DNA of 35,242 nt from Syntrophomonadaceae bacterium (GTDB lineage Bacteria > Bacillota > Dethiobacteria > DTU022). How positions within the stretch are numbered: the first letter of the stretch is position 1; the number at the start of each line of letters is the position of its first letter. The notes under the pieces are model-generated. The model did not search any database and had not been told where the DNA came from. It was given only the letters and a program-made list of their open reading frames with translations. The translations under genes and the position numbers were made by a program. Positions 10,202 through 32,162 of the stretch are shown here, one piece after another. The stretch covers positions 1 through 35,242 of the forward strand of contig SKXC01000161.1 of the NCBI GenBank assembly GCA_007128625.1. Reading direction: 5' to 3'.

Positions 10202-11761
10202 ATGAATAGAGCCCTGAAAACCCAAAAAGGAAATAACATGTTGACCATAAACGGTGAGGATTTTAACTGCGCAGATGTTGCTCGTGTAGCGCGTCAAAAG
10301 GTACCGGTTTCCATATGCCCGGAAGCTTTGGAACGGATCAGGCGTTCCAGGGCGATGTTAGAAGAACTGGTTGACCGGGAAGCAGTTGTTTACGGGATTA
10401 CCACCGGTTTTGGTAGTTTCAGTGATGTGACCATCTCCAGGGAAGATGCCATTCAACTACAAAAAAACCTGATTGCCAGCCATGCCGCCGCAGTCGGCGA
10501 TCCCCTCCCGGAAGATGTGGTGAGGGCAGCGCTGCTGCTCAGGTTAAATGCCCTTGCCCGTGGTTATTCCGGGGTCCGTCCTCTCCTGGTTAAACAGCTG
10601 ATTGAGGTTTTGAACAAGGGGGTAGTCCCGGTTATTCCTGAGCAGGGTTCACTTGGAGCCAGTGGAGATCTGGCTCCCCTTTCACATCTGGCCCTGGTTT
10701 TAACCGGTGAAGGTGAAGCTTTCTATCAAGGCAAGAAAATGCCGGGTGGCGAAGCACTTTCCCAGGCCGGAATTGAACCGGTTACCCTGCTTGAAAAAGA
10801 GGGGCTGGCCCTGATTAACGGTACCCAGGTTATGACGGCTATTGGCACCCTCGCTTATCATGATGCCGTAAACCTGTTAAAAGCGGCCCTGGTTACCGGT
10901 GCTTTAACCCTGGAAGCCCAGCAGGCGGTTCTTGATGCCTTTGATCCTTTAATTTCCGAAGTAAGACCTTACAGGGGCCATAAGTATACAGCTGAGGTGA
11001 TAAACCGCCTGGTTGAGGGCAGTATTCACATCGGCAGTGACAGCCAGAAAGTGCAGGATGCCTACAGCCTGCGTTGTATTCCTCAGGTTCATGGCGCTAC
11101 GGCCGATGCTCTTGAATATGTGAAGAGCATCCTGGAAGTGGAAATCAATTCGGTTAATGACAATCCCCTGCTTTTTCCTGATCAGAACCGGGTTCTTTCA
11201 GGCGGCAATTTCCACGGCCAACCTGTGGCCCAGGCCATGGATTTTATGGCTATTGCCGTTTCTGAACTGGGCAGCATTGCAGAGCGGCGCATTGAAAGGC
11301 TGGTTAATCCGGACCTGAGCGGCCTCCCTTCCTTCTTAATTGAGGAAGGCGGCTTGAATTCGGGCTTGATGATTGCCCAGTATACTGCTGCTTCCCTGGT
11401 AAGTGAGAATAAAGGCCTTTGTCATCCATCCAGCGTCGATTCAATCCCTTCTTCGGCCAACCAGGAAGATCATGTCAGCATGGGAACTACAGCGGCCCGC
11501 AAAGCCCGCCGGGTAGTTGATAATACGGCCCGTGTGATTGGAATTGAACTGCTGGTAGCTGCCCAGGCTGTGGAATTCAGGGGCGCTGATTGTCTTGGTC
11601 GGGGTACTGCTGCTGCTCATAAAGCCTTGCGAGAGGAAGTAGGCTTTTTAGAAAAAGATCAGATCCTTTATCCCCTTATTGACAGGGCTGTGGAGATGGT
11701 TACCAGTGGACATCTGGTAAAAAAAGTTGAAGAAGTAATCAGTCTTAATATTGATGCATAA
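10202..11761 (+). CDS. hutH: Histidine ammonia-lyase
   Basis: MIO motif region GSLGASGDLAPLSHLALVLTGEGEAFYQGK; YGITTGFGSF; SVDSIPSSANQEDHVSMG. The start may instead be ATG 10238. Confidence 0.95.
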   Translation: MNRALKTQKGNNMLTINGEDFNCADVARVARQKVPVSICPEALERIRRSRAMLEELVDREAVVYGITTGFGSFSDVTISREDAIQLQKNLIASHAAAVGDPLPEDVVRAALLLRLNALARGYSGVRPLLVKQLIEVLNKGVVPVIPEQGSLGASGDLAPLSHLALVLTGEGEAFYQGKKMPGGEALSQAGIEPVTLLEKEGLALINGTQVMTAIGTLAYHDAVNLLKAALVTGALTLEAQQAVLDAFDPLISEVRPYRGHKYTAEVINRLVEGSIHIGSDSQKVQDAYSLRCIPQVHGATADALEYVKSILEVEINSVNDNPLLFPDQNRVLSGGNFHGQPVAQAMDFMAIAVSELGSIAERRIERLVNPDLSGLPSFLIEEGGLNSGLMIAQYTAASLVSENKGLCHPSSVDSIPSSANQEDHVSMGTTAARKARRVVDNTARVIGIELLVAAQAVEFRGADCLGRGTAAAHKALREEVGFLEKDQILYPLIDRAVEMVTSGHLVKKVEEVISLNIDA

Positions 11762-11817
11762 CCACCAAATTAATGATAAAATAAGAGCATTAATATGCAG
11801 AAAAAGGCAGGATAAAA

Positions 11818-12255
11818 ATGGATAAAATCGGGAAAACAGCGATTATGTTTGCCTTGGCCGATGGGGAACTGGAAGAAAATATCAAAGCCACTGCTGAAAA
11901 GAACGGTTTTAAATTGATCAAGGGTAAAGTCGGGTCTATGAGTACCGAAAAAATATTTGCCGCTGTTGAAACTGCTGCTCAGAGGGAAGGCCTGGTCCGC
12001 AAGGATTATTATCGTGACACCCATGCTTTATACCATGCCATCCTCGATGCCTTTGTCGGTATTTGCAGGGGGCAGCTGGGCCTGGGCGATATGCTGCGGA
12101 CGGTAGGCCTGATGTTTACTGTAGTCAGGGGCCCAAGGAATGTGGATCAGCGTGAAGATGGTGATTGGCTGGCGGTGGTTCTCTATGGTACTATCGGCGC
12201 TCCGGTTAAAGGTTATGAACATGAAACAATAGGGCTGGGCATAAACCACTTATAG
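11818..12255 (+). CDS. hutP: HutP family histidine-responsive RNA-binding antiterminator
   Basis: 145 aa. KGKVGSMSTEKIFAAVETAAQREGL, RDTHALYHAILDA, LLYGTIGAP-like VVLYGTIGAPVKGYEHETIGLGINHL, collinear with Bacillus HutP including the HxxxH pair. Confidence 0.93.
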   Translation: MDKIGKTAIMFALADGELEENIKATAEKNGFKLIKGKVGSMSTEKIFAAVETAAQREGLVRKDYYRDTHALYHAILDAFVGICRGQLGLGDMLRTVGLMFTVVRGPRNVDQREDGDWLAVVLYGTIGAPVKGYEHETIGLGINHL

Positions 12256-12271
12256 TCTTTCTCAACTATTA

Positions 12272-13717
12272 ATGGAGGTGTTTGCAATAACCGCGTATTA
12301 TTCGAACTACAGTCAGCAGCTGTCGCCACAGCTAAAATGGTTCACTACGGCTCAACTGGAAGAGATCCACAGTGCCACGATAGATGTCCTGGAAAGGGCA
12401 GGGGTAAAGGTTTATCACGAGGAATCCTTAACACTGCTTGAAGAGGCAGGTTGCATTGTCAAAGACGGTGTGGCCAGGATTCCCGGTTGGCTGATTGAGG
12501 AAGCGATCAGGGTCGCGCCATCAAAGATTAATATTTTTAACCGGGAAGGTTTTCCGGCCATGAGCCTGGAGGCCAATAAAACATATTACGGGACCGGTTC
12601 TGATTTACCCTTTCACCTGGACCTTGAAACGGGCGAAAGAAGGAGATCGGTTAAGCAGGATATTATAAATACTGCTTTACTGCTGGAAAACCTGTCAAAT
12701 TATGATTTTTCCATGAGCTATGGTATACCCAGTGACATTCCGGCCGAAAAGGGCGATTTGCATCAGTTTGCCGCCCAGATCCTCAATTGCTCCAAGCCGA
12801 TTATTTTTACCTCTTTTAACGAACAAAATATCAGGATAATCATTGAAATGACGCTATCGGCAGCCGGTTCTCACGAGCGGCTTCGCAGCCGCCCTTTTAT
12901 TATTCTCTACAGTGAACCGATTTCACCCCTGGTGCATACCAGGGACGGTCTGGCCAAGATGTTTGCCTGTATTGAATACGGCGTGCCGGTTATTTATACC
13001 CCGGGTGTGGTAGCGGGCGCTACCTGTCCGGTAACCAAAGCGGGTACAATTGTGCAAATGAATGCGGAAAGCCTTTCCGGGCTGGTTATTGCACAGCTAA
13101 AAAAGAAAGGTGCCCCGGTGATTATTGGCGGTGGGGCAACCCCGATGGAAATGAGCACTACAGCCACCCTGTATGGCTCGCCTGATGCAGCCATGAACTA
13201 TTGTGCCATGACGGAACTGGCCAAGTTTTATGGTCTGCCTAACTTTACTGAAGCCGGCTGTTCCAATGCACCGGTACCCGATGCCCAGGCTGGAATGGAG
13301 GCTTCCATTGGTTTACTTATGAATCAGCTGGCCGGGGCCAACCTGGTGCACGATGTGGGCTACCTGGATGGCGGCAAGACTGGTTCTCTGCCCTTCCTGG
13401 TAATGTGCGATGACTTTATTAGCGCAGCAAAGTATGTCGGGGCCGGGACGGCTGTCAACAAAGATACAATCGGTACCGATACTATCGAGGCTGTTGGCCC
13501 TTCCGGGCACTATCTTGGAGAAGAACACACAATGAAGCACTTCCGCAGTGAAATATGGTCTCCCACAGTATTTAACCGGACAATGTATGAAACATGGGAA
13601 AAGAGGGGCAGTAAGGATATCTATGAGCTGGCCCGGGAAAAGGTTGCGGCGCTTTTAAAAGAGGAAGTAAATGCTCCGGACGAAGCAGTTGTTGAAAAAA
13701 TAAACGCTTTAATTTAA
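12272..13717 (+). CDS. Trimethylamine methyltransferase (MttB) family protein, non-pyrrolysine type
   Basis: 481 aa. LEEIHSATIDVLERAGVKVYHEESLTLLEEAG...YYGTGSDLPFHLDLETGERR...KQD; no in-frame amber codon. Confidence 0.9.
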   Translation: MEVFAITAYYSNYSQQLSPQLKWFTTAQLEEIHSATIDVLERAGVKVYHEESLTLLEEAGCIVKDGVARIPGWLIEEAIRVAPSKINIFNREGFPAMSLEANKTYYGTGSDLPFHLDLETGERRRSVKQDIINTALLLENLSNYDFSMSYGIPSDIPAEKGDLHQFAAQILNCSKPIIFTSFNEQNIRIIIEMTLSAAGSHERLRSRPFIILYSEPISPLVHTRDGLAKMFACIEYGVPVIYTPGVVAGATCPVTKAGTIVQMNAESLSGLVIAQLKKKGAPVIIGGGATPMEMSTTATLYGSPDAAMNYCAMTELAKFYGLPNFTEAGCSNAPVPDAQAGMEASIGLLMNQLAGANLVHDVGYLDGGKTGSLPFLVMCDDFISAAKYVGAGTAVNKDTIGTDTIEAVGPSGHYLGEEHTMKHFRSEIWSPTVFNRTMYETWEKRGSKDIYELAREKVAALLKEEVNAPDEAVVEKINALI

Positions 13718-13728
13718 GGAGATAGATA

Positions 13729-14709
13729 ATGAATTCAAGGGACCGAATATTAAAGGCTTTAAACCTGGAAGAGCCGGACAGGGTTCCTTTTGCGGATTAC
13801 GTGGAAGATAAGATGAGGGCGATATTGATGGGCAGGGATATTTTTACCGACATTGATTTTGCCAGGACAATGGGTTTTGATGCCATCAACATCAATCATT
13901 TTGTCGCCCCCGTCTTTTGCGATAGAAAAGTTGTAGATGGTCATGATTACATTCTTGATGGCCTGATTAAATGCAGAAAAGATCTTGACCTGATGGTTTT
14001 TCCCGATCCGGTCAGCGAGATGCCTTACGAAGAAGTGGAAAGAATAATTGAGGATAACCGTGAAGCTGGCCTGGCAACCTATGCGATCTGCCGCTTCGGA
14101 ATCAGTGGGGTAAATTATTCTATGGGTATAGAGGCGCTGTCTTATGCTATATATGAAGACCCCGGGTTGATCGAAAAAGTAATGGATCGCTACGTTGACT
14201 GGAACTGCAGGGTTGTCGAAAAATTAAATGAGATTGGTGTAGATTTTATTATTTCTTACGACAACATTGCCTACAATAGCGGTCCTTTAGTATCACCACA
14301 GGTTTTCAGAGAGTTCTTTGTCCCGGGAATGAAAGCGATCTCTGATACATGCAAAATGCCCTGGATTACCCATATGGATGGCAATATTATGCAGATTATG
14401 GAAGATGTTTTAAGTATGGGGGTCAGCGGGCTTCACCCTATCGAGCCAGTCTGCATGGACATAAAGGCGGTAAAAGAAAAATACGGTGACAGGGTTTGCC
14501 TGTGGGGCAACATTGATCTTCGCTATACCTTAACCCGCGGCACCCCGGAAGAAGTAGAAGCAGAAGTAAAACAGAAGATAAAAGATATCGCCCCCGGTGG
14601 CGGATATATAATGGGCAGCAGTAACGGTTTGCCCGAGTATTGTAAAGTAGATAATATATGGGCCATGGTTAAGGTGGTAAAAAATTACGGAAAATACCCT
14701 ATACATTAG
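13729..14709 (+). CDS. Uroporphyrinogen decarboxylase (URO-D/MtaA-like) family protein
   Basis: 326 aa. MNSRDRILKALNLEEPDRVPF; ISYDNIAYNSGPLVSPQVFREFFVPGMKAI; WITHMDGNI; LWGNIDLRYTLTRGTPEEVEAEVKQKI. Typical of UroD-like proteins beside corrinoid methyltransferases. Confidence 0.85.
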   Translation: MNSRDRILKALNLEEPDRVPFADYVEDKMRAILMGRDIFTDIDFARTMGFDAININHFVAPVFCDRKVVDGHDYILDGLIKCRKDLDLMVFPDPVSEMPYEEVERIIEDNREAGLATYAICRFGISGVNYSMGIEALSYAIYEDPGLIEKVMDRYVDWNCRVVEKLNEIGVDFIISYDNIAYNSGPLVSPQVFREFFVPGMKAISDTCKMPWITHMDGNIMQIMEDVLSMGVSGLHPIEPVCMDIKAVKEKYGDRVCLWGNIDLRYTLTRGTPEEVEAEVKQKIKDIAPGGGYIMGSSNGLPEYCKVDNIWAMVKVVKNYGKYPIH

Positions 14710-23064: not shown

Positions 23065-24549
23065 ATGACGGTAAACAACCCTTCTATCAACACAATCGGT
23101 TTAAGTATGATGAATAAAGAACAAATGGACCGAATTCATAAAGGCACCTTGCAGATTCTTGAACATACAGGAGTGAAAGTTTTTGAACCTGAATCACTGG
23201 AGTTGCTTCATAATGCCGGTGCCCGGGTTGATGGTCCCCTGGTAAAGATTCCACCCCGGATGGTCGAGCAGGCCCTGGAGACAGCACCCTCTGCAGTTAC
23301 CCTGTTTGCTCGTGACAGCAGTAAAAATATAGCAATGGAGAAAAACAAAATATACTATGGAACCGGCTCAGAGGTACCTTTTACGATTGATCTCTATTCC
23401 GGAGAACGCCGGAGACCGCTTAAACAGGATAACTGTCACGCCGCACAATTAGTTGAAGCATTGGAGCATATTGATTTTGCCATGTCTTTGGGAGTGGCAA
23501 CTGATGTTCCTGTCGATGCATCAGACCTTCACCAGTTTGAAGCGATGATTCTTAATACCAGTAAACCAATCTTGTTTACTGCCTATCAGCGTGGCGGCCT
23601 GGAATCCATTATTGAAATAGCCCGCCTGGTCGCCGGGGGCAAAGAAGAGTTGCGTAAAAAGCCCCACCTTGCTCTTTATGCCGAACCCAGTTCACCTTTG
23701 CTGCATTCAGGTGACGCTTTAGAAAAATTGCTGACCTGTGCTTCAGAAGGTATTCCGCTAATTTATGCAACAACTCCTATGCTTGGTGCTACTGCCCCGG
23801 TAACAATGGGCGGAGCCCTGGTTGTCGCCAATACCGAGATATTATCAGGCCTGGTCATTCATCAATTAAAAGCTGCAGGAGCACCGTTTATTTATGGCGG
23901 AGGAATTCCGCCCATGCATATGGGCACCTCGATTTGCTCTTACGGAGGGCCGGAACGTGACCGGGGCTGTATTTCACTGGTTGGCCTGTCCCAGTATTAT
24001 AACTTACCTTCATTTACTACAGCCGGTTGTACTGATGCCCATATTTTTGATCAACAGGCCGGTATGGAAGCTGGATTTAACCTGCTAATTGCCGGGTTGG
24101 CCGGAGGCAACCTGATTCACAACCTGGGCTACATGGGCATAGGGATGATTTCCTGCCTGGAGCATTTACTGCTTTGTAACGAGGCTGTAGGCGGCGTCAA
24201 GCATTTGCTGCGAGGCATCGATACCAGCGATGAGCACCTGGCCCTTGATCTAATCGATAAAGTGGGTCCCGGCGGACATTTCCTGGCTGATGAACATACC
24301 ATGAGGCATTTTCGCCGGGAATTATATTTCCCGCAAACCTTAAATAGGAAAAACTATGATGTCTGGGTGAAAGAAGGGAGTAAAACATTTGGTGAGGTGG
24401 CTAATGAACAGGTGCGAACTATTCTAAAAAATCACCATCTGGAAATAATCTCACCGGAAACTAAAGAAGAGATCCAAAAAATTGTCTCGCGTCGTGACCG
24501 GCAGGTAGCCCGGGAACCCGGTAAAACGTATTTAGATAGCAAAAAATAG
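23065..24549 (+). CDS. MttB-family methyltransferase, non-pyrrolysine type (paralog 2)
   Basis: 494 aa. RIHKGTLQILEHTGVKVFEPESLELLHNAGARV...YYGTGSEVPFTIDLYSGERR...TTAGCTDAHIFDQQAGMEAGFNLL. Confidence 0.9.
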   Translation: MTVNNPSINTIGLSMMNKEQMDRIHKGTLQILEHTGVKVFEPESLELLHNAGARVDGPLVKIPPRMVEQALETAPSAVTLFARDSSKNIAMEKNKIYYGTGSEVPFTIDLYSGERRRPLKQDNCHAAQLVEALEHIDFAMSLGVATDVPVDASDLHQFEAMILNTSKPILFTAYQRGGLESIIEIARLVAGGKEELRKKPHLALYAEPSSPLLHSGDALEKLLTCASEGIPLIYATTPMLGATAPVTMGGALVVANTEILSGLVIHQLKAAGAPFIYGGGIPPMHMGTSICSYGGPERDRGCISLVGLSQYYNLPSFTTAGCTDAHIFDQQAGMEAGFNLLIAGLAGGNLIHNLGYMGIGMISCLEHLLLCNEAVGGVKHLLRGIDTSDEHLALDLIDKVGPGGHFLADEHTMRHFRRELYFPQTLNRKNYDVWVKEGSKTFGEVANEQVRTILKNHHLEIISPETKEEIQKIVSRRDRQVAREPGKTYLDSKK

Positions 24550-24594
24550 CATTTATAGGCAGCTTTGGCAATTATAATAAGGGAGGCAGTAATA

Positions 24595-26052
24595 TTGCTC
24601 AACAAGAGTATTTTTAACAGGCGTTTGGGGCTGCTAAATTTGACACCTGGTCAAACCGAAAAGCTGCATCAGGCCACCCTGGATATACTGGAACAGGTTG
24701 GAGTAAAGATATGCGAGCCAGAAGCGATGGAACTTTTACATGATGGCGGGGCTCGTGTAACAGGTGATCTGGTCAAGATCCCCACTTTTATGGTTCAGCA
24801 GGCACTGCAAACAGCACCGGGCAAAGTATTAATCTTTGATCGCAGCGGTAACGAGGCGATGATTCTTGAAAAGGATAATATTTATTACGGCACCGGTTCT
24901 GATACCTCTTACACAATAGATATTGAAACCGGCGAAAGAAGACTTTCAGTTAAACAGGACACGGTAAATGCCGCTATTGTTACTGATGCCCTTGATAATT
25001 TAGATTTTGTCATGTCCATGGCCCGGGCTGCGGATGTGCCCGAGGATAGAATTGATCGGCATCACTTTGAGGCCATGACTTTAAACAGTGTCAAGCCGAT
25101 TATTTTCGATGCCCATGATCGTCAGGGTCTCCTTGAAATAATTGAAATGGCCGGTATCGTGAGAGGGAGTAAAGAAAAGCTGGTTGAAAAGCCTTATATT
25201 ATCCATTACTCTCAACCAACATCACCACTGGTTCAGTCAAAGAATGCTTTAAGTAAACTGCTTACCGCTGCAGAGGAAAGAATACCGACTGTTTATGCTT
25301 CAGCAGTACTTTGCGGAGCAACCGGCCCGGTAACAACAGCCGGTGCGCTGGTTGTGGCCAATGCCGAAATACTTTCCGGCCTGGTGGTTCACCAGCTAAA
25401 AGCAAAGGGAGCACCCTTTATTTATGGAGGTGGGACACCTCCCCTGGATATGATTACCACGATTTGTACTTACGGAAACCCGCAGGGGGCTCTTGGCTCG
25501 GCATCACTGGTTCAAATGGCCCAGTATTATGATTTACCCTCTTTTACTCTTGCAGGCTGTACCGATGCTCATATTTTTGATCAACAGGCGGCGATGGAAG
25601 CTGGTTTTAACCTGCTCATCTCCGGCCTGGCCGGAGGTAATTTGATTCATGATCTTGGTTACATTGGTTCCGGTACAACCGGCAGCCTTGAATACCTGAT
25701 CTTATGTAATGAAGGGGCCGGAGCTGTTAAATATCTTGTCCGCGGAGTAGATATCAACCCGGCTACCCTGGCCCTGGATGTGATCAAGCAAGTCGGCCCC
25801 GGGGGCAACTTTATAACCGATAAGCATACCATGGATCATTTCCGCAACCAGATGCATTTTACCAATCTTTTTAATCGCAACAATTACAAAAACTGGCAAT
25901 CTGCCGGTTCCAAGAGCCTGGCAAAAAGTGCCAATGATTTACTGAAAGAAATATTAAAATGGCACGAGGTTCCTCCTCTTGCACCTGAAATAGAAAAAGA
26001 GCTTAAAGAACTGGCCTGCGGCAGGGCAGGTAGAAACCGGGAACTGGCATGA
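24595..26052 (+). CDS. MttB-family methyltransferase, non-pyrrolysine type (paralog 3)
   Basis: KLHQATLDILEQVGVKICEPEAMELLHDGGARV...TLAGCTDAHIFDQQAAMEAGFNLLISGLAGGNLIHDLGYIG. RBS GGGAGG upstream of TTG 24595; the ORF track starts at 24565. Confidence 0.9.
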   Translation: MLNKSIFNRRLGLLNLTPGQTEKLHQATLDILEQVGVKICEPEAMELLHDGGARVTGDLVKIPTFMVQQALQTAPGKVLIFDRSGNEAMILEKDNIYYGTGSDTSYTIDIETGERRLSVKQDTVNAAIVTDALDNLDFVMSMARAADVPEDRIDRHHFEAMTLNSVKPIIFDAHDRQGLLEIIEMAGIVRGSKEKLVEKPYIIHYSQPTSPLVQSKNALSKLLTAAEERIPTVYASAVLCGATGPVTTAGALVVANAEILSGLVVHQLKAKGAPFIYGGGTPPLDMITTICTYGNPQGALGSASLVQMAQYYDLPSFTLAGCTDAHIFDQQAAMEAGFNLLISGLAGGNLIHDLGYIGSGTTGSLEYLILCNEGAGAVKYLVRGVDINPATLALDVIKQVGPGGNFITDKHTMDHFRNQMHFTNLFNRNNYKNWQSAGSKSLAKSANDLLKEILKWHEVPPLAPEIEKELKELACGRAGRNRELA

Positions 26053-26129
26053 GCAGCAATTCACTGTTATAATTAAGTTTATTACTGATATTAAGTTGTA
26101 ACTAAATTGCTTGTTAAGGAGAATATATT

Positions 26130-26756
26130 ATGCTTAAAGAACTGTCCATCCAGGAGTTAGTTCGTGAAGTATCTTCTCCGTCTCCCGCACCGGGTGGAGG
26201 CAGTGTTGCTGCACTGGCCGGAGCCCAGGGCGCTGGTCTTCTTTCGATGTACTGCAATTTAAGTCAAAATCGGGACAAGCTGGGTGATATAGTTGATATG
26301 CTGAAAAAGGTCGGAGAAGAAGCGCGGTTTTTGATGACCAGGATGTTAGAAGGAATTGATGAAGATACAGTAGCCTTCAACCAGGTTATGGAAGGCTACC
26401 GGCTGCCCAAAGAAAGTGAAGCTGATAAAGCGAAGCGAAAAAAAGTTATTCAGGAAGCCATTAAAAATGCAGCCGATGTTCCGATGCAAATTGCCCGAGG
26501 CAGTTTACGTGTGCTGTCCCTGGTTGATGAGGTTGCCGGCAAAGGCAATCCGGCAGCAATATCCGACCTTGGCATGGCAAATTTGCAGGCCCGTGCTGCC
26601 CTGATTGGAGCTTGTTACAATGTTAAAATAAACCTGGGCCAGCTTTCAGATAAGCAGTTTATTAAAGACTATGCCTCTGAAGCTGACAAACTCCTCGAAC
26701 AGGGTCAGGAACTATATAACAAAAATCGCCTTGTCATTGAACAGGAAATCCAGTAA
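26130..26756 (+). CDS. fchA: Formiminotetrahydrofolate cyclodeaminase (FTCD_C family)
   Basis: 208 aa. SPSPAPGGGSVAALAGAQGAGLLSM; DEDTVAFNQVMEGYRLPK; GNPAAISDLGMANLQARAALIGA. Confidence 0.9.
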   Translation: MLKELSIQELVREVSSPSPAPGGGSVAALAGAQGAGLLSMYCNLSQNRDKLGDIVDMLKKVGEEARFLMTRMLEGIDEDTVAFNQVMEGYRLPKESEADKAKRKKVIQEAIKNAADVPMQIARGSLRVLSLVDEVAGKGNPAAISDLGMANLQARAALIGACYNVKINLGQLSDKQFIKDYASEADKLLEQGQELYNKNRLVIEQEIQ

Positions 26757-26785
26757 AGACCATTTGTTATTATAGAGGTGATTAA

Positions 26786-27559
26786 ATGTCCGATTTATAT
26801 TCTGTAATTGACAATTCATCACTGCCCATGTACCTTTTTTATCCACGCCGTCAGCACAGCAGACCCCGGGGCGGAGCTTTTGATCTAAAAGTCCCGCTTG
26901 AAAACAATTTGTCCATTGTCTGCCGTGCTTATCCCGCCAGAGAAGAAAATCCCTGGATCCTTTACTTTCACGGCAACGGTGAGGTGGTTAGTGATTATGA
27001 CGGCATAGCCCCTCTTTATACCGACAGGGGATTAAACCTTTTTGTTGCCGATTACCGGGGTTACGGGGCCAGCGATGGAACCCCCACCTTTACCGATATG
27101 GTCAAAGATGCCGGGGTAATTTTCGATTATGTTTATCATCACCTGCCCGTTGAAGGCAAAAGATATGACTGGTATGTTATGGGCCGTTCGCTGGGTAGCA
27201 TTTCTGCCTTGGAACTTGCCGCAAAATTTCCCGGGAAATTAAAAGGGCTGATCATTGAAAGTGGTTTTATCAGTGTAGCCGGGTTGATTTGCCATCTGGG
27301 CTTACCTTCGCCCGGAGATCTTTCTGTACTGGAAAAAGAATATCGGCGTCTGACCGGAACAATAGAACTGCCGTCTTTGGTCATCCATGGCGAGCATGAC
27401 CGCCTGGTTCCATTAGCACAGGGTGAAGATTTATATCAATCCCTGGGAACAGGGCAAAAAGAGATGCTGATCATTCCTCGAGCAGATCATAACGATATCA
27501 TGTTTGTTGACTCAGAAAATTACATGCAGGCAATTGCAAAGTTTGTTTTTAATAAATAA
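26786..27559 (+). CDS. Alpha/beta hydrolase
   Basis: 257 aa. YFHGNGEVVSDY, DYRGYGASDG, MGRSLGSISALELA (nucleophile elbow GRSLGS), VIHGEHDRLVPLAQGEDLY. Confidence 0.9.
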   Translation: MSDLYSVIDNSSLPMYLFYPRRQHSRPRGGAFDLKVPLENNLSIVCRAYPAREENPWILYFHGNGEVVSDYDGIAPLYTDRGLNLFVADYRGYGASDGTPTFTDMVKDAGVIFDYVYHHLPVEGKRYDWYVMGRSLGSISALELAAKFPGKLKGLIIESGFISVAGLICHLGLPSPGDLSVLEKEYRRLTGTIELPSLVIHGEHDRLVPLAQGEDLYQSLGTGQKEMLIIPRADHNDIMFVDSENYMQAIAKFVFNK

Positions 27560-27584
27560 ACTGTAACAAGGAGGTTGTAAATAT

Positions 27585-28037
27585 ATGCAAATTAAAGAAG
27601 TCATGTCTACAGAAGTGATAACAGTTTCGACCAGTGATCCGGTGGAAAAATGTGCTAAACTGCTCCAGGAAAATGACATAAGTGGATTACCGGTAATAGA
27701 TAAGGATGGCAGGGTAGTCGGGATGGTTACTGAAGGTGATTTAATCAGGCGGGCTTCAAGGATTGAGGCTCCCGGTTACCTGGAAATTCTTGGTGGGTTG
27801 ATCTATCTGGGCAGCCCCTCTAAGTTTGTTGATGAGCTGCAAAGAGCCATGGCCCTGGAGGCCGGGCGGCTGATGAGCAAAGATGTGATTACCATAAAAC
27901 CGGATCAAGACCTGGAAACTGCAGCCACCATGATGGTCAAAAAAAACATCAATCGGCTTCCGGTCATTGATGATAATGATCAGTTAGTCGGAATAGTTTC
28001 CCGTCGCGATATTATGAAACATCTTTATAATCAATGA
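27585..28037 (+). CDS. CBS-domain pair protein
   Basis: 150 aa with two CBS motifs: MQIKEVMSTEVITVSTSDPVEKCAKLLQENDISGLPVIDKDGRVVGMVTEGDL and LMSKDVITIKPDQDLETAATMMVKKNINRLPVIDDNDQLVGIVSRRDIM. Confidence 0.94.
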   Translation: MQIKEVMSTEVITVSTSDPVEKCAKLLQENDISGLPVIDKDGRVVGMVTEGDLIRRASRIEAPGYLEILGGLIYLGSPSKFVDELQRAMALEAGRLMSKDVITIKPDQDLETAATMMVKKNINRLPVIDDNDQLVGIVSRRDIMKHLYNQ

Positions 28038-28264
28038 AACACTGCTCTTTTGATTGCCGGCTGCATGGTTAACTCCCCCTGCTGGTTTATGCCTGCTCTT
28101 TCTTTACTGATGACTTAGATGACTTAATCGATGAGTTTGGCTTAAGCAAACCTGAATGCATGTGTCCTTACCATGGAACTGTAGTTATCTTAAAGGCCAG
28201 GATCCAGGATAGTAAGTTGTGATCAAAAAATTGTTGCTTTAGTAAAAAATAAGGAGGTTTAATT

Positions 28265-29458
28265 TTGCCCGGAGGTTTGAGCTTGTTTAATAAGTATAAG
28301 CTGATCGTCTTAATTTTTATTGTAATAGCAGTTATGGCAATATTATTTTTTTCTCATTTGCCATCACTTACACCAGGAGAAGAGGAGGAAACAGCTCCAG
28401 CTGATTCTGAATTTCAACCTGCAGATGACCCTTATGCTGCCTACAATTTAAGCCTTGATGCTGAAAAACCGATAGTTCTTAAGTTTTATGCCCGCTGGTG
28501 AACTGCTTGCGTAATGATGGAGCCCGTGATCATGGCTCTAAAAGAACATTATGCCGGTAGAGTGGAATTTATTGTCGCCGACCTCGATAACCCTGCTTCT
28601 GATCAGCTTCTGAAAATATATGATGTATTATATATCCCGATGTTTTATTTTATCAACGAACAAGGTGAAGTGGTGTCCGAAGAAGCAGGCATTTTCAGTT
28701 TTGAAGAGATGGAGGCCAAAATTGAACCGATCATTGGTGAGCCTTTTGAAGCTGAGGAATTATCACGCCTGGACTATTTTTTTACAGAACAGCTTCCCGC
28801 TACTGTGGAGCAACGATCTCTTTTTACCCTGGCCATCGTTTTTCTTGGCGGCTTAATTACCAGTATCAGCCCCTGTATTTTGTCAATGGTTCCTCTTTTA
28901 ATCAGCTATATCGGAGGGTATGGTGAAGGTTCACGTTCAAGAGGTTTCTTTATCTCGTTAACTTTTGTTACCGGTTTGGCCGTTACTTTTGCCATCCTAG
29001 GTTTTATAGCTGCCGGATTTGGTCGGGTATTCGGTGAAATTGGCGAGATCTGGTACTACCTGCTCGCTGCTGTGGCCATTATCATGGGTTTGCAGCTGCT
29101 CGGCGTTTTAACCTTTAATTTGCCTGGCTTAAAAAATATCCCGGTTAAAAAAGTCGGTTTGGGTGGATCCCTGGTCATGGGGATGCTCTTTGGATTGGTT
29201 GCTTCACCCTGTGCCACACCGGTTTTGGCCGTGATTATCACCTATGCAGCAGTTCAGGCCGAACCATTTTACGGCAGTGGGCTGCTTTTTGTTTATGGCC
29301 TGGGTCATGGGATTCCCCTTATAGCAGCCGGTACTTTCGCCGGAATAGCCAGGGGTTTGCCAAGGATAAGCAAGTACACCAGGTATCTCAGCTATTTCAG
29401 CGGGCTGGTTTTAATAATTCTTGGTCTGGTTCTTTTAGCCTGGATTAACTGGATTTAA
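28265..29458 (+). CDS. Membrane-anchored thioredoxin-like/CcdA fusion, probable selenoprotein (Sec at codon 79, UGA 28499-28501)
   Basis: ORFs 28265-28501 and 28514-29458 share one frame, interrupted only by TGA. Read-through gives KPIVLKFYARW-U-TACVMMEPVIMALKEHYAGRVEFIVADLDN, i.e. a thioredoxin WCxxC site with the first Cys as UGA, followed by a CcdA-type domain (SISPCIL, ASPCATP). RBS AAGGAGG 8 nt before TTG. Confidence 0.82.
28518..28540 (+). promoter_or_regulatory. Candidate bacterial SECIS hairpin
   Basis: TGGAGCC-CGTGATCAT-GGCTCTA: 7-bp stem (one G.U) with GU in the apical loop, starting 16 nt after the UGA. Confidence 0.6.
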
Positions 29459-29620: not shown

Positions 29621-31321
29621 ATGGAAGTCAATATCCTTGTAGGAGGCGCAGCAGGTCAGGGTATGGAGACGATTATGAACCTGCTGGGTAAAGCGCTGGT
29701 CAGGGAAGGCTGTGAATTGATTTATACTAAAGATTACATGTCCCGGGTCCGGGGCGGTCATAATTTTTCATGCCTTCGTATTACTTCAGACACTCCCTGG
29801 ACAACAGTCGAATCGATTGACATTATGGTTGCTCTCAATGAAGAGACATACTTTCTTCACCAGGATAACCTGGTTTTTTCAGGCCGGGTTATTTTTGACC
29901 CGAACTTGTTCAGCCTCCCGGAAAAAGAAAACAGGGGTGTGCCGGTTGAACTGCAAAAGTTGGCCGAAGAGGCCGGCGGAAAAGTAATGGCCAACACAGT
30001 AGCGGTTGGAGCCCTGCTGGTATTGATGGGCCTGCAAACCTCTACAGTTGAAATTTTGCTTAAGGACATCTTTGCAGATAAAGAAGGTGTTGCCGATAAA
30101 AATATTGCTGCACTCAAGGCAGGTTTTGAAGCGGCAGCTCAATTTTGCAGCACCTGCTTTGATTTGCCTCCAAGAAACAAAGATGCTAAAAAACTATTTA
30201 TTGACGGCAGCCAGGTACTGGGCATGGCTGCTCTTGCCAGCGGGTGCCGATTTCTATCTGCTTACCCGATGACCCCTTCAACCGGAATCATGAATTACCT
30301 GGCCGGGAAAAGCAAAAATTATCCTGTGGTGGTTGAACAGGCCGAAGATGAGATTGCAGCCATCAACATGGCTATTGGCGCTTCTTATGCCGGGGTTAGA
30401 GCCCTGACCTGTACTTCAGGAGGCGGGTTTTCACTGATGGTGGAGGGAGTTTCCCTGGCCGGTATGACCGAAACTCCCCTGGTAATAGTTATAGCAATGC
30501 GGCCCGGCCCGGCTACGGGTTTGCCTACACGCACTGAGCAGGCCGATCTTGAATTCGTTATTCACAGCGGCCACGGCGAATTTCCGCGGGCAGTTTTAAG
30601 TGCAACCTCGCACGAAGATGCTTTTTACCGTTTAAATAAAGCATTTGAGCTGGCCGATCGTTACCAGACACCGGTATTTTTCCTTTCAGATCAAAACTTT
30701 GCCGACACCCACCGTTCCGTAGAACCCTTTGATTTCGGGCGGATGAAATATAACCGATTTATTGCAGAAGAAAACGGGTATGAAAAACCCTATAAGCGCT
30801 ACCGGATTACCGAAAGTGGCATATCACCACGTGCTTTACCCGGGCAGTTTGAAAATGAGGTAGTTTTAGTTGATAGTGATGAACACGATGAGAATGGTAA
30901 TATTATTGAAGACGCTTCTACCCGTCGCTCGATGGTAGAAAAAAGAATGCGTAAACTAAAGGCCCTGGCTGAAGAAATGGATGAACCAGATCTATATGGC
31001 GATCCTAATCCGGAATTGCTGTTAATCGGCTGGGGTTCTACCTACGGGGTGCTGCGGGAAGTTGTAGATATGCTTGCAATACTGGAAACAAAAACAGCCA
31101 TGCTCCATTTTAGTGATATCTGGCCTCTTCCCCAGAAACGTCTAAAAAAACTGTTCCCCGGGGTGAAGCGCAGTTATTGTATTGAAAACAATGCCTGTGG
31201 ACAGCTTTCTGCCCTGATTCGTCGGGAAACAGGGCTTTCGATCGACAGTTTAATCTTAAAATATGACGGACGCCCTTTTATGCCCCATGAAATTGTGGAG
31301 GAGGTAAAAAATGATCTATAA
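29621..31321 (+). CDS. 2-oxoacid:acceptor oxidoreductase, fused gamma-alpha subunit (KorA-like)
   Basis: 566 aa. The N-terminal gamma domain (GGAAGQGMETIMNLLGKALVREGCELIYTKDYMSRVRGGHNF) precedes the alpha domain (FLSAYPMTPSTGIMNYLAGK; VEQAEDEIAAINMAIGASYAGVRALTCTSGGGFSLMVEG). Confidence 0.93.
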   Translation: MEVNILVGGAAGQGMETIMNLLGKALVREGCELIYTKDYMSRVRGGHNFSCLRITSDTPWTTVESIDIMVALNEETYFLHQDNLVFSGRVIFDPNLFSLPEKENRGVPVELQKLAEEAGGKVMANTVAVGALLVLMGLQTSTVEILLKDIFADKEGVADKNIAALKAGFEAAAQFCSTCFDLPPRNKDAKKLFIDGSQVLGMAALASGCRFLSAYPMTPSTGIMNYLAGKSKNYPVVVEQAEDEIAAINMAIGASYAGVRALTCTSGGGFSLMVEGVSLAGMTETPLVIVIAMRPGPATGLPTRTEQADLEFVIHSGHGEFPRAVLSATSHEDAFYRLNKAFELADRYQTPVFFLSDQNFADTHRSVEPFDFGRMKYNRFIAEENGYEKPYKRYRITESGISPRALPGQFENEVVLVDSDEHDENGNIIEDASTRRSMVEKRMRKLKALAEEMDEPDLYGDPNPELLLIGWGSTYGVLREVVDMLAILETKTAMLHFSDIWPLPQKRLKKLFPGVKRSYCIENNACGQLSALIRRETGLSIDSLILKYDGRPFMPHEIVEEVKNDL

Positions 31322-32162
31322 AGCTGAAGATTACATGATTGGAGAAACAGCCTGGTGTCCTGGTTGTGGTAATTTTGCTATCCGGGAAGCTTTGGCCGGA
31401 GCGCTTTTTGATCTTGAACTGCCTCCGCACAAGATACTGCTATTATCCGGGATCGGTCAGGCAGCCAAAATACCGCATTATCTGCGGGTAAACGGTTTTA
31501 ATGGTTTGCATGGACGAGCTCTTCCACCTGCTGTTGGGGCCCGGGTGGCCAACAAAGATCTAAAAGTAATTGTCGAGTCCGGTGACGGTGACAGCTATGG
31601 TGAAGGCGGAAATCACTTTATTCATAACATTCGCCGTAATCCGGATATTGCCCATTTTGTTCATGATAACCAGGTTTACGGTCTGACCAAGGGACAGGCC
31701 AGTCCGACCAGTGAACCGGGGATGAAAACCGGTGTCCAGGTAGAAGGTGTCACAGCACCTCCATTGAACCCACTTTCCCTGGCCCTGGTTATGGGGGCCG
31801 GATTCGTTGCCCGCTGTTTTAGCGGGGAAAAGGAGCATCTGCGTGAAACGATGAAAGAGGCGATAAATTTTCCTGGCTACGCCCTGATTGATATTTTACA
31901 GCCCTGTGTTTCATTTAATAAGGTAAACACTTACGGTTGGTATAAAAAACGAGTTTTTTTCCCGGATATTGAAAACCCCAGGGATTGGGCGGCAGCAATG
32001 GAGTGTTCTCGCCAGTGGGGAGATAATATTCCGCTGGGTGTTTTTTATAACAGTCCTCGGCCGACATTTGAATCTCACAGGTCAGCACTGGATGATGAAC
32101 CATTAAGCATGAAGCCCTTTGACCCACAGCAGGTTACCAGTCTTCAAAATGATTTTTTATAA
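31311..32162 (+). CDS. 2-oxoacid:ferredoxin oxidoreductase beta subunit (KorB-like, TPP-binding)
   Basis: 283 aa. WCPGCGNFAIREAL; GIGQAAKIPHYL; SGDGDSYGEGGNHFIHNIRRNPDI; NQVYGLTKGQASPTSEPG. Overlaps the alpha gene by 11 nt. Confidence 0.94.
   Translation: MIYKAEDYMIGETAWCPGCGNFAIREALAGALFDLELPPHKILLLSGIGQAAKIPHYLRVNGFNGLHGRALPPAVGARVANKDLKVIVESGDGDSYGEGGNHFIHNIRRNPDIAHFVHDNQVYGLTKGQASPTSEPGMKTGVQVEGVTAPPLNPLSLALVMGAGFVARCFSGEKEHLRETMKEAINFPGYALIDILQPCVSFNKVNTYGWYKKRVFFPDIENPRDWAAAMECSRQWGDNIPLGVFYNSPRPTFESHRSALDDEPLSMKPFDPQQVTSLQNDFL

Follow-up and report, generated by a model that had tools for sequence, protein, structure and literature searches.

A thioredoxin-CcdA fusion protein of a Syntrophomonadaceae bacterium, with an apparent stop codon almost certainly read as selenocysteine

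The stretch of DNA analysed here (the window) comprises positions 1 to 35,242 of contig SKXC01000161.1 from a Syntrophomonadaceae bacterium (assembly GCA_007128625.1), whose genome is a fragmented draft of 175 contigs that is 97% complete. Standard ORF calling yields a 314-aa ORF at 28514-29458 and a 78-codon piece upstream of it, which is the split that the earlier note on this DNA had expected of gene callers. The frame that starts with the TTG at 28265 and closes with a TAA whose last base is 29458 is open except for a single TGA, which falls exactly where a thioredoxin domain has its first catalytic Cys, as that note had proposed, and lies in frame with a CcdA/DsbD domain (Table 1). We argue that the two apparent genes are almost certainly one membrane protein, the apparent stop being read as selenocysteine (Sec).

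Table 1. Features of the locus and its surroundings, with the basis of each assignment
Feature	Position	Strand	Basis
Whole selenoprotein gene (397 aa, Sec79, TTG start, TAA stop)	28265..29458	+	Read-through translation, Pfam domains, 23 fused homologues
AGGAGG, likely ribosome binding site	28253..28258	+	6 nt 5' of the TTG start at 28265; read directly from the sequence
N-terminal membrane anchor, residues 13-31	28301..28357	+	Hydropathy 2.97 over 19 residues; helix 9-29 in the AlphaFold2 model
Thioredoxin domain, residues 63-152, motif W-U-T-A-C	28451..28720	+	Pfam PF00085, E 6e-14; thioredoxin fold matches in PDB
In-frame UGA, Sec codon 79	28499..28501	+	TGA in 39 homologous loci, TGT in 3
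bSECIS hairpin, 7-bp stem, loop CGUGAUCAU	28518..28540	+	23 nt from UGA to loop; constraints from PMC13188914
CcdA/DsbD transmembrane domain, residues 187-392	28823..29440	+	Pfam PF02683 (DsbD_TM), E 7e-30; best PDB sequence match CcdA 5vkv
Conserved downstream neighbours: 2-oxoacid:ferredoxin oxidoreductase alpha (fused gamma) and beta subunits	29621..32162	+	Context only
Conserved upstream neighbours: two MTTB methyltransferase homologues, FchA-like cyclohydrolase, alpha/beta hydrolase, CBS-domain protein	23065..28037	+	Context only

The read-through product joins a thioredoxin domain with a UxxC motif to a transmembrane domain of the CcdA/DsbD family, and the Pfam matches bear out the earlier reading that the codons after the TGA stay thioredoxin-like and continue into a CcdA/DsbD domain with two SPC motifs. 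Its Cys and Sec residues are confined to positions 79 (Sec), 82, 204 and 316, the last two both within SPC motifs; all four are invariant in the 23 fused proteins of the family, as is Pro125 of the YIP motif, whose cis state we assume. The hydropathy profile has a single N-terminal anchor followed by a multi-helix membrane domain. In the AlphaFold2 model, which is moderate as a whole (pTM 0.52), the thioredoxin domain is confident (block means of about 78-92 over residues 51-150), and the fold matches of the model are thioredoxins, with a TM-score of about 0.8 by target length. The top Foldseek matches, to a receptor crystal, were rejected as relatives of the membrane part, since they probably reflect a thioredoxin fusion tag plus helices.

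Homologues in both fused and split form were collected by searches of the order, the class and the phylum. According to the alignment, codon 79 reads TGA at 39 loci and TGT, for Cys, at another three, a distribution far from chance, in which the in-frame UGA aligns with the Cys that the earlier note had expected in relatives. The TGA occurs in all 23 fused loci of the window's family, its own included (60-80% identity for the others), and in 16 further loci, which comprise free-standing paralogues, split pairs of thioredoxin and CcdA genes, and other fusions. Three of the 23, counted once, come from the public Syntrophomonadaceae metagenome-assembled genomes CSSed165cm_584, CSSed162cmA_245 and CSSed162cmA_337, which we take to originate from soda-lake sediment. 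The free-standing paralogues are thioredoxins of about 200 aa without CcdA; loci L052 and L053 (genomes G040 and G010) carry the same UGA and hairpin, and those at G036:C36 and G039:C131 carry the in-frame TGA only. Median pN/pS values, which are rough here owing to the near-saturation of synonymous sites, are 0.60 upstream of the UGA, 0.38 for the part of the thioredoxin that follows it and 0.21 for CcdA; as judged from these comparisons, the locus is under purifying selection and not decaying into the pseudogene that the earlier note had considered.

The proposal that a 7-bp hairpin beginning 16 nt past the UGA acts as a bacterial SECIS (bSECIS) element agrees well with what is known of such structures. 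The published model has a loop of 3-9 nt with G in the first two loop positions, a stem of 4-16 bp, a distance of 16-37 nt from the UGA and a minimum free energy of -7.5 kcal/mol or lower (PMC13188914). The hairpin of the window, with arms at 28518-28524 and 28534-28540 and a folding energy of -9.0 kcal/mol with flanks and -8.2 bare, lies within all these limits. Under the same rules, 30 of the 39 TGA forms pass, against 0 of the 3 Cys forms; the other nine TGA forms fall short on energy, six of them by a small margin, with -7.2 kcal/mol. For the window's gene alone, the comparison of hairpin energy with synonymous recodings was not significant (fraction 0.19), and we therefore relied on conservation at the level of codons. 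Every one of 22 sequences has the codons GAG-CCC-GTG in the hairpin, with their synonymous sites fixed; gene-wide, conserved residues that can be encoded by at least four codons have a mean pairwise codon identity of 0.375, and the three top 15-codon windows by normalised codon conservation all fall on the hairpin. RNAalifold found no stem pair with both sides changed, but the stem is nearly invariant, so that covariation is uninformative. A search of the region against Rfam gave chance matches only and no SECIS.

The Sec machinery that the earlier note had proposed to look for is present in the window's own genome: a tRNA-Sec (74 bits, above the Rfam cut-off; anticodon TCA according to ARAGORN) and selA, selB and selD, which share one contig and all score above curated cut-offs. 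The TGA in 39 loci, this machinery and the hairpin strongly support the Sec reading of codon 79 and uphold the claim of a probable selenoprotein. Of 98 genomes of the class, 87 were found to contain selA. A loss of the Sec machinery from genomes with the Cys form was considered and rejected, as selA is kept in three out of three. The selD gene of the window's genome (locus L020, contig C173) contains a TGA in frame shortly after its beginning, so that SelD is probably a selenoprotein itself.

On the basis of the homologues and the predicted structure, we propose that SelB and Sec-tRNA decode the UGA as selenocysteine, directed by the hairpin just 3' of it. The product would consist of the N-terminal anchor, an extracytoplasmic thioredoxin with the Sec79-x-x-Cys82 pair, and the CcdA membrane domain. 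We infer both the topology and the electron flow of this predicted relay by homology to DsbD and to the CcdA-Etrx system: CcdA would draw electrons from cytosolic thioredoxin via Cys204/Cys316 and pass them to Sec79-Cys82, which would reduce disulfides or other oxidised groups of a client outside the cell. By this analogy, CcdA probably carries electrons to a selenium-containing thioredoxin on the outer side of the membrane.

In family f1 the gene is part of a conserved row of MTTB homologues, an FchA-like cyclohydrolase, a hydrolase, a CBS protein, sometimes an MFS transporter, the Sec-thioredoxin-CcdA gene itself and the 2-oxoacid:ferredoxin oxidoreductase subunits. Outside this family the neighbours differ and include the lipoprotein transferase LGT, ArsP/ArsR and Germane. 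Genes for an ArsP permease and an ArsR regulator adjoin the Sec-thioredoxin/CcdA genes in L093 (G144) and L103 (G254), and the gene order makes a link to arsenic possible in these families. The MFS gene of some relatives separates the CBS gene from the Sec-thioredoxin-CcdA gene; it is absent from the window, where no remnant of it was found at 28038-28264. Elsewhere in the window (10202-14709), genes for an aromatic amino acid lyase, HutP, an MTTB-family protein and a URO-D-family protein stand in a row, mixing genes of the histidine-use type with relatives of corrinoid methyltransferases.

Even if the Sec reading is accepted, the relay could serve cytochrome c maturation (in a ResA/CcmG-like role) or the spore cortex (in a StoA-like role), as CcdA and its thioredoxin-fold partners do in other bacteria (PMC4460558), and a Germane-domain gene near some split relatives would fit such a role. 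We consider these roles unlikely here, because ResB, the CcsA/CcmC/CcmF family and Spo0A were not found in the 97%-complete genome, in which the controls were positive; moreover, the ResA and StoA models match weakly, far under their cut-offs. Searches of the literature on SaoT/SaoD, and on selenoproteins with cytochrome c biogenesis, yielded nothing useful.

The history of the predicted Sec-thioredoxin-CcdA relay can be followed in its split relatives. In L048, L054, L055, L059, L061, L062, L066 and others, a stop near residue 158-163 separates the Sec-thioredoxin frame from the ccdA frame, and codon 79 has kept its TGA. This junction stop is TAA or TAG, also TGA, and is absent from the fused clade; L058 and L065 are ambiguous because their junction stop is itself TGA. 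In the tree, the 23 fused proteins form one clade (support 100/100), whose neighbours, with moderate support, are split pairs from within that order and class. The homologues and the tree suggest that the fused gene arose from an adjacent pair of Sec-thioredoxin and ccdA genes through loss of the intervening stop, so that the gene boundary was probably lost and the UGA kept. The fusions in L060 and L075/L076 are likely independent of this clade. The fusion described in the earlier note thus holds for the window's family, with the refinement that in many relatives Sec-thioredoxin and CcdA form a pair of separate genes. L055 and L056, from different genera (G089 and G086), share the same Sec-thioredoxin/ccdA locus, in which the homology to ccdA breaks off prematurely around residue 316; an insertion, a transfer or contamination could each account for it.

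These split pairs also bear on the reading of the UGA as an ordinary stop, in which it would end a short membrane-anchored peptide and CcdA would start alone at the ATG at 28514, in line with standard ORF calling, with the use of TGA as a stop in 5 of the 25 genes of the window, and with the existence of thioredoxin and CcdA as separate genes in some relatives. However, the stop that separates those genes lies about 80 codons later, the codon-79 TGA being retained; that split pairs have a junction stop of their own and the fused clade has none is a strong argument against the UGA as a gene boundary. In addition, the stretch from the UGA to CcdA is a conserved thioredoxin under purifying selection and the piece before the UGA is without an active site, which makes termination at this codon very improbable.

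Some bacteria read UGA as Trp or Cys, and Cys forms do exist at this site, which could suggest decoding by an altered code or a suppressor tRNA instead of Sec insertion. We regard this as extremely unlikely, given that other genes in the window end normally at TGA, that tRNA-Sec, selA, selB and selD are all present, and that the bSECIS hairpin accompanies TGA and not TGT. That the TGA stems from faulty sequencing or assembly, or marks a decaying pseudogene, is conceivable in a fragmented draft but has a negligible chance of being correct, being refuted for practical purposes by the same TGA in 23 family genomes and 16 other loci and by pN/pS well below 1 downstream of it.

We hold with high confidence that 28265-29458 is one selenoprotein gene, in which the hairpin directs Sec to the UGA, encoding an anchored, predicted extracytoplasmic UxxC thioredoxin with a putative CcdA relay and probably derived by fusion of a split pair. 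We also lean towards a broader view, according to which a Sec-dependent transmembrane relay of UxxC thioredoxin and CcdA is widespread, encoded as neighbouring genes by many families within one phylum, fused more than once, and strongly reducing towards an extracytoplasmic client. The protein adds to the bacterial selenoproteome a domain architecture that standard gene callers split, and would mean that a transmembrane thiol relay has selenium at its exit, a point at which the examples described so far rely on sulfur. Its Sec and Cys, split and fused relatives offer a natural test of why selenium is retained at that point, and the conserved hairpin provides a clean bSECIS family for studies of SelB.

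Both components of the predicted relay have known counterparts. UxxC thioredoxin (Trx, PF00085) is an established selenoprotein, listed in Table 1 of a 2026 review together with the rhodanese/DsbD fusion TsoB, and the window's protein resembles it in the thioredoxin fold and in the replacement of the first catalytic Cys by Sec, but differs in being membrane anchored, presumably extracytoplasmic, and fused to CcdA; in the available part of that review, the table of known and predicted prokaryotic selenoproteins has no thioredoxin-CcdA fusion, so that the architecture appears to be an unlisted one that occurs in many related bacteria (PMC13188914). None of the selenoprotein models of NCBIfam was passed by the protein. 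TsoB (NF045694) is likewise a selenoprotein with a DsbD-type membrane domain, but it is rhodanese-like and has two Sec residues (UxxxxU); this assignment was rejected, as the match reaches 125.8 bits against a cut-off of 805, covers mainly the membrane part, and the window's protein has one Sec. DsbD, the best NCBIfam match on the membrane part, also joins a thioredoxin domain to the same transmembrane domain, but its thioredoxin domain is C-terminal, it has an N-terminal alpha domain and it contains no Sec, whereas in the window's protein the thioredoxin comes first and the alpha domain is missing; with 128.6 bits against a cut-off of 330 and an order other than alpha-beta-gamma, DsbD proper was rejected as well. 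A further parallel is the CcdA-Etrx system of Streptococcus pneumoniae, in which CcdA feeds electrons to an extracytoplasmic membrane-attached thioredoxin encoded alongside; the bicistronic etrx2-ccdA2 resembles the split relatives, but the thioredoxin there uses Cys instead of Sec, is a separate lipoprotein and has MsrAB2 as its client (PMC3914529). In this respect, the unusual redox device envisaged by the earlier note stands as a Sec version and a new fused architecture, and not as a new principle: Sec-thioredoxins and the CcdA-thioredoxin relay were both known, and what appears to be new is their combination in one protein.
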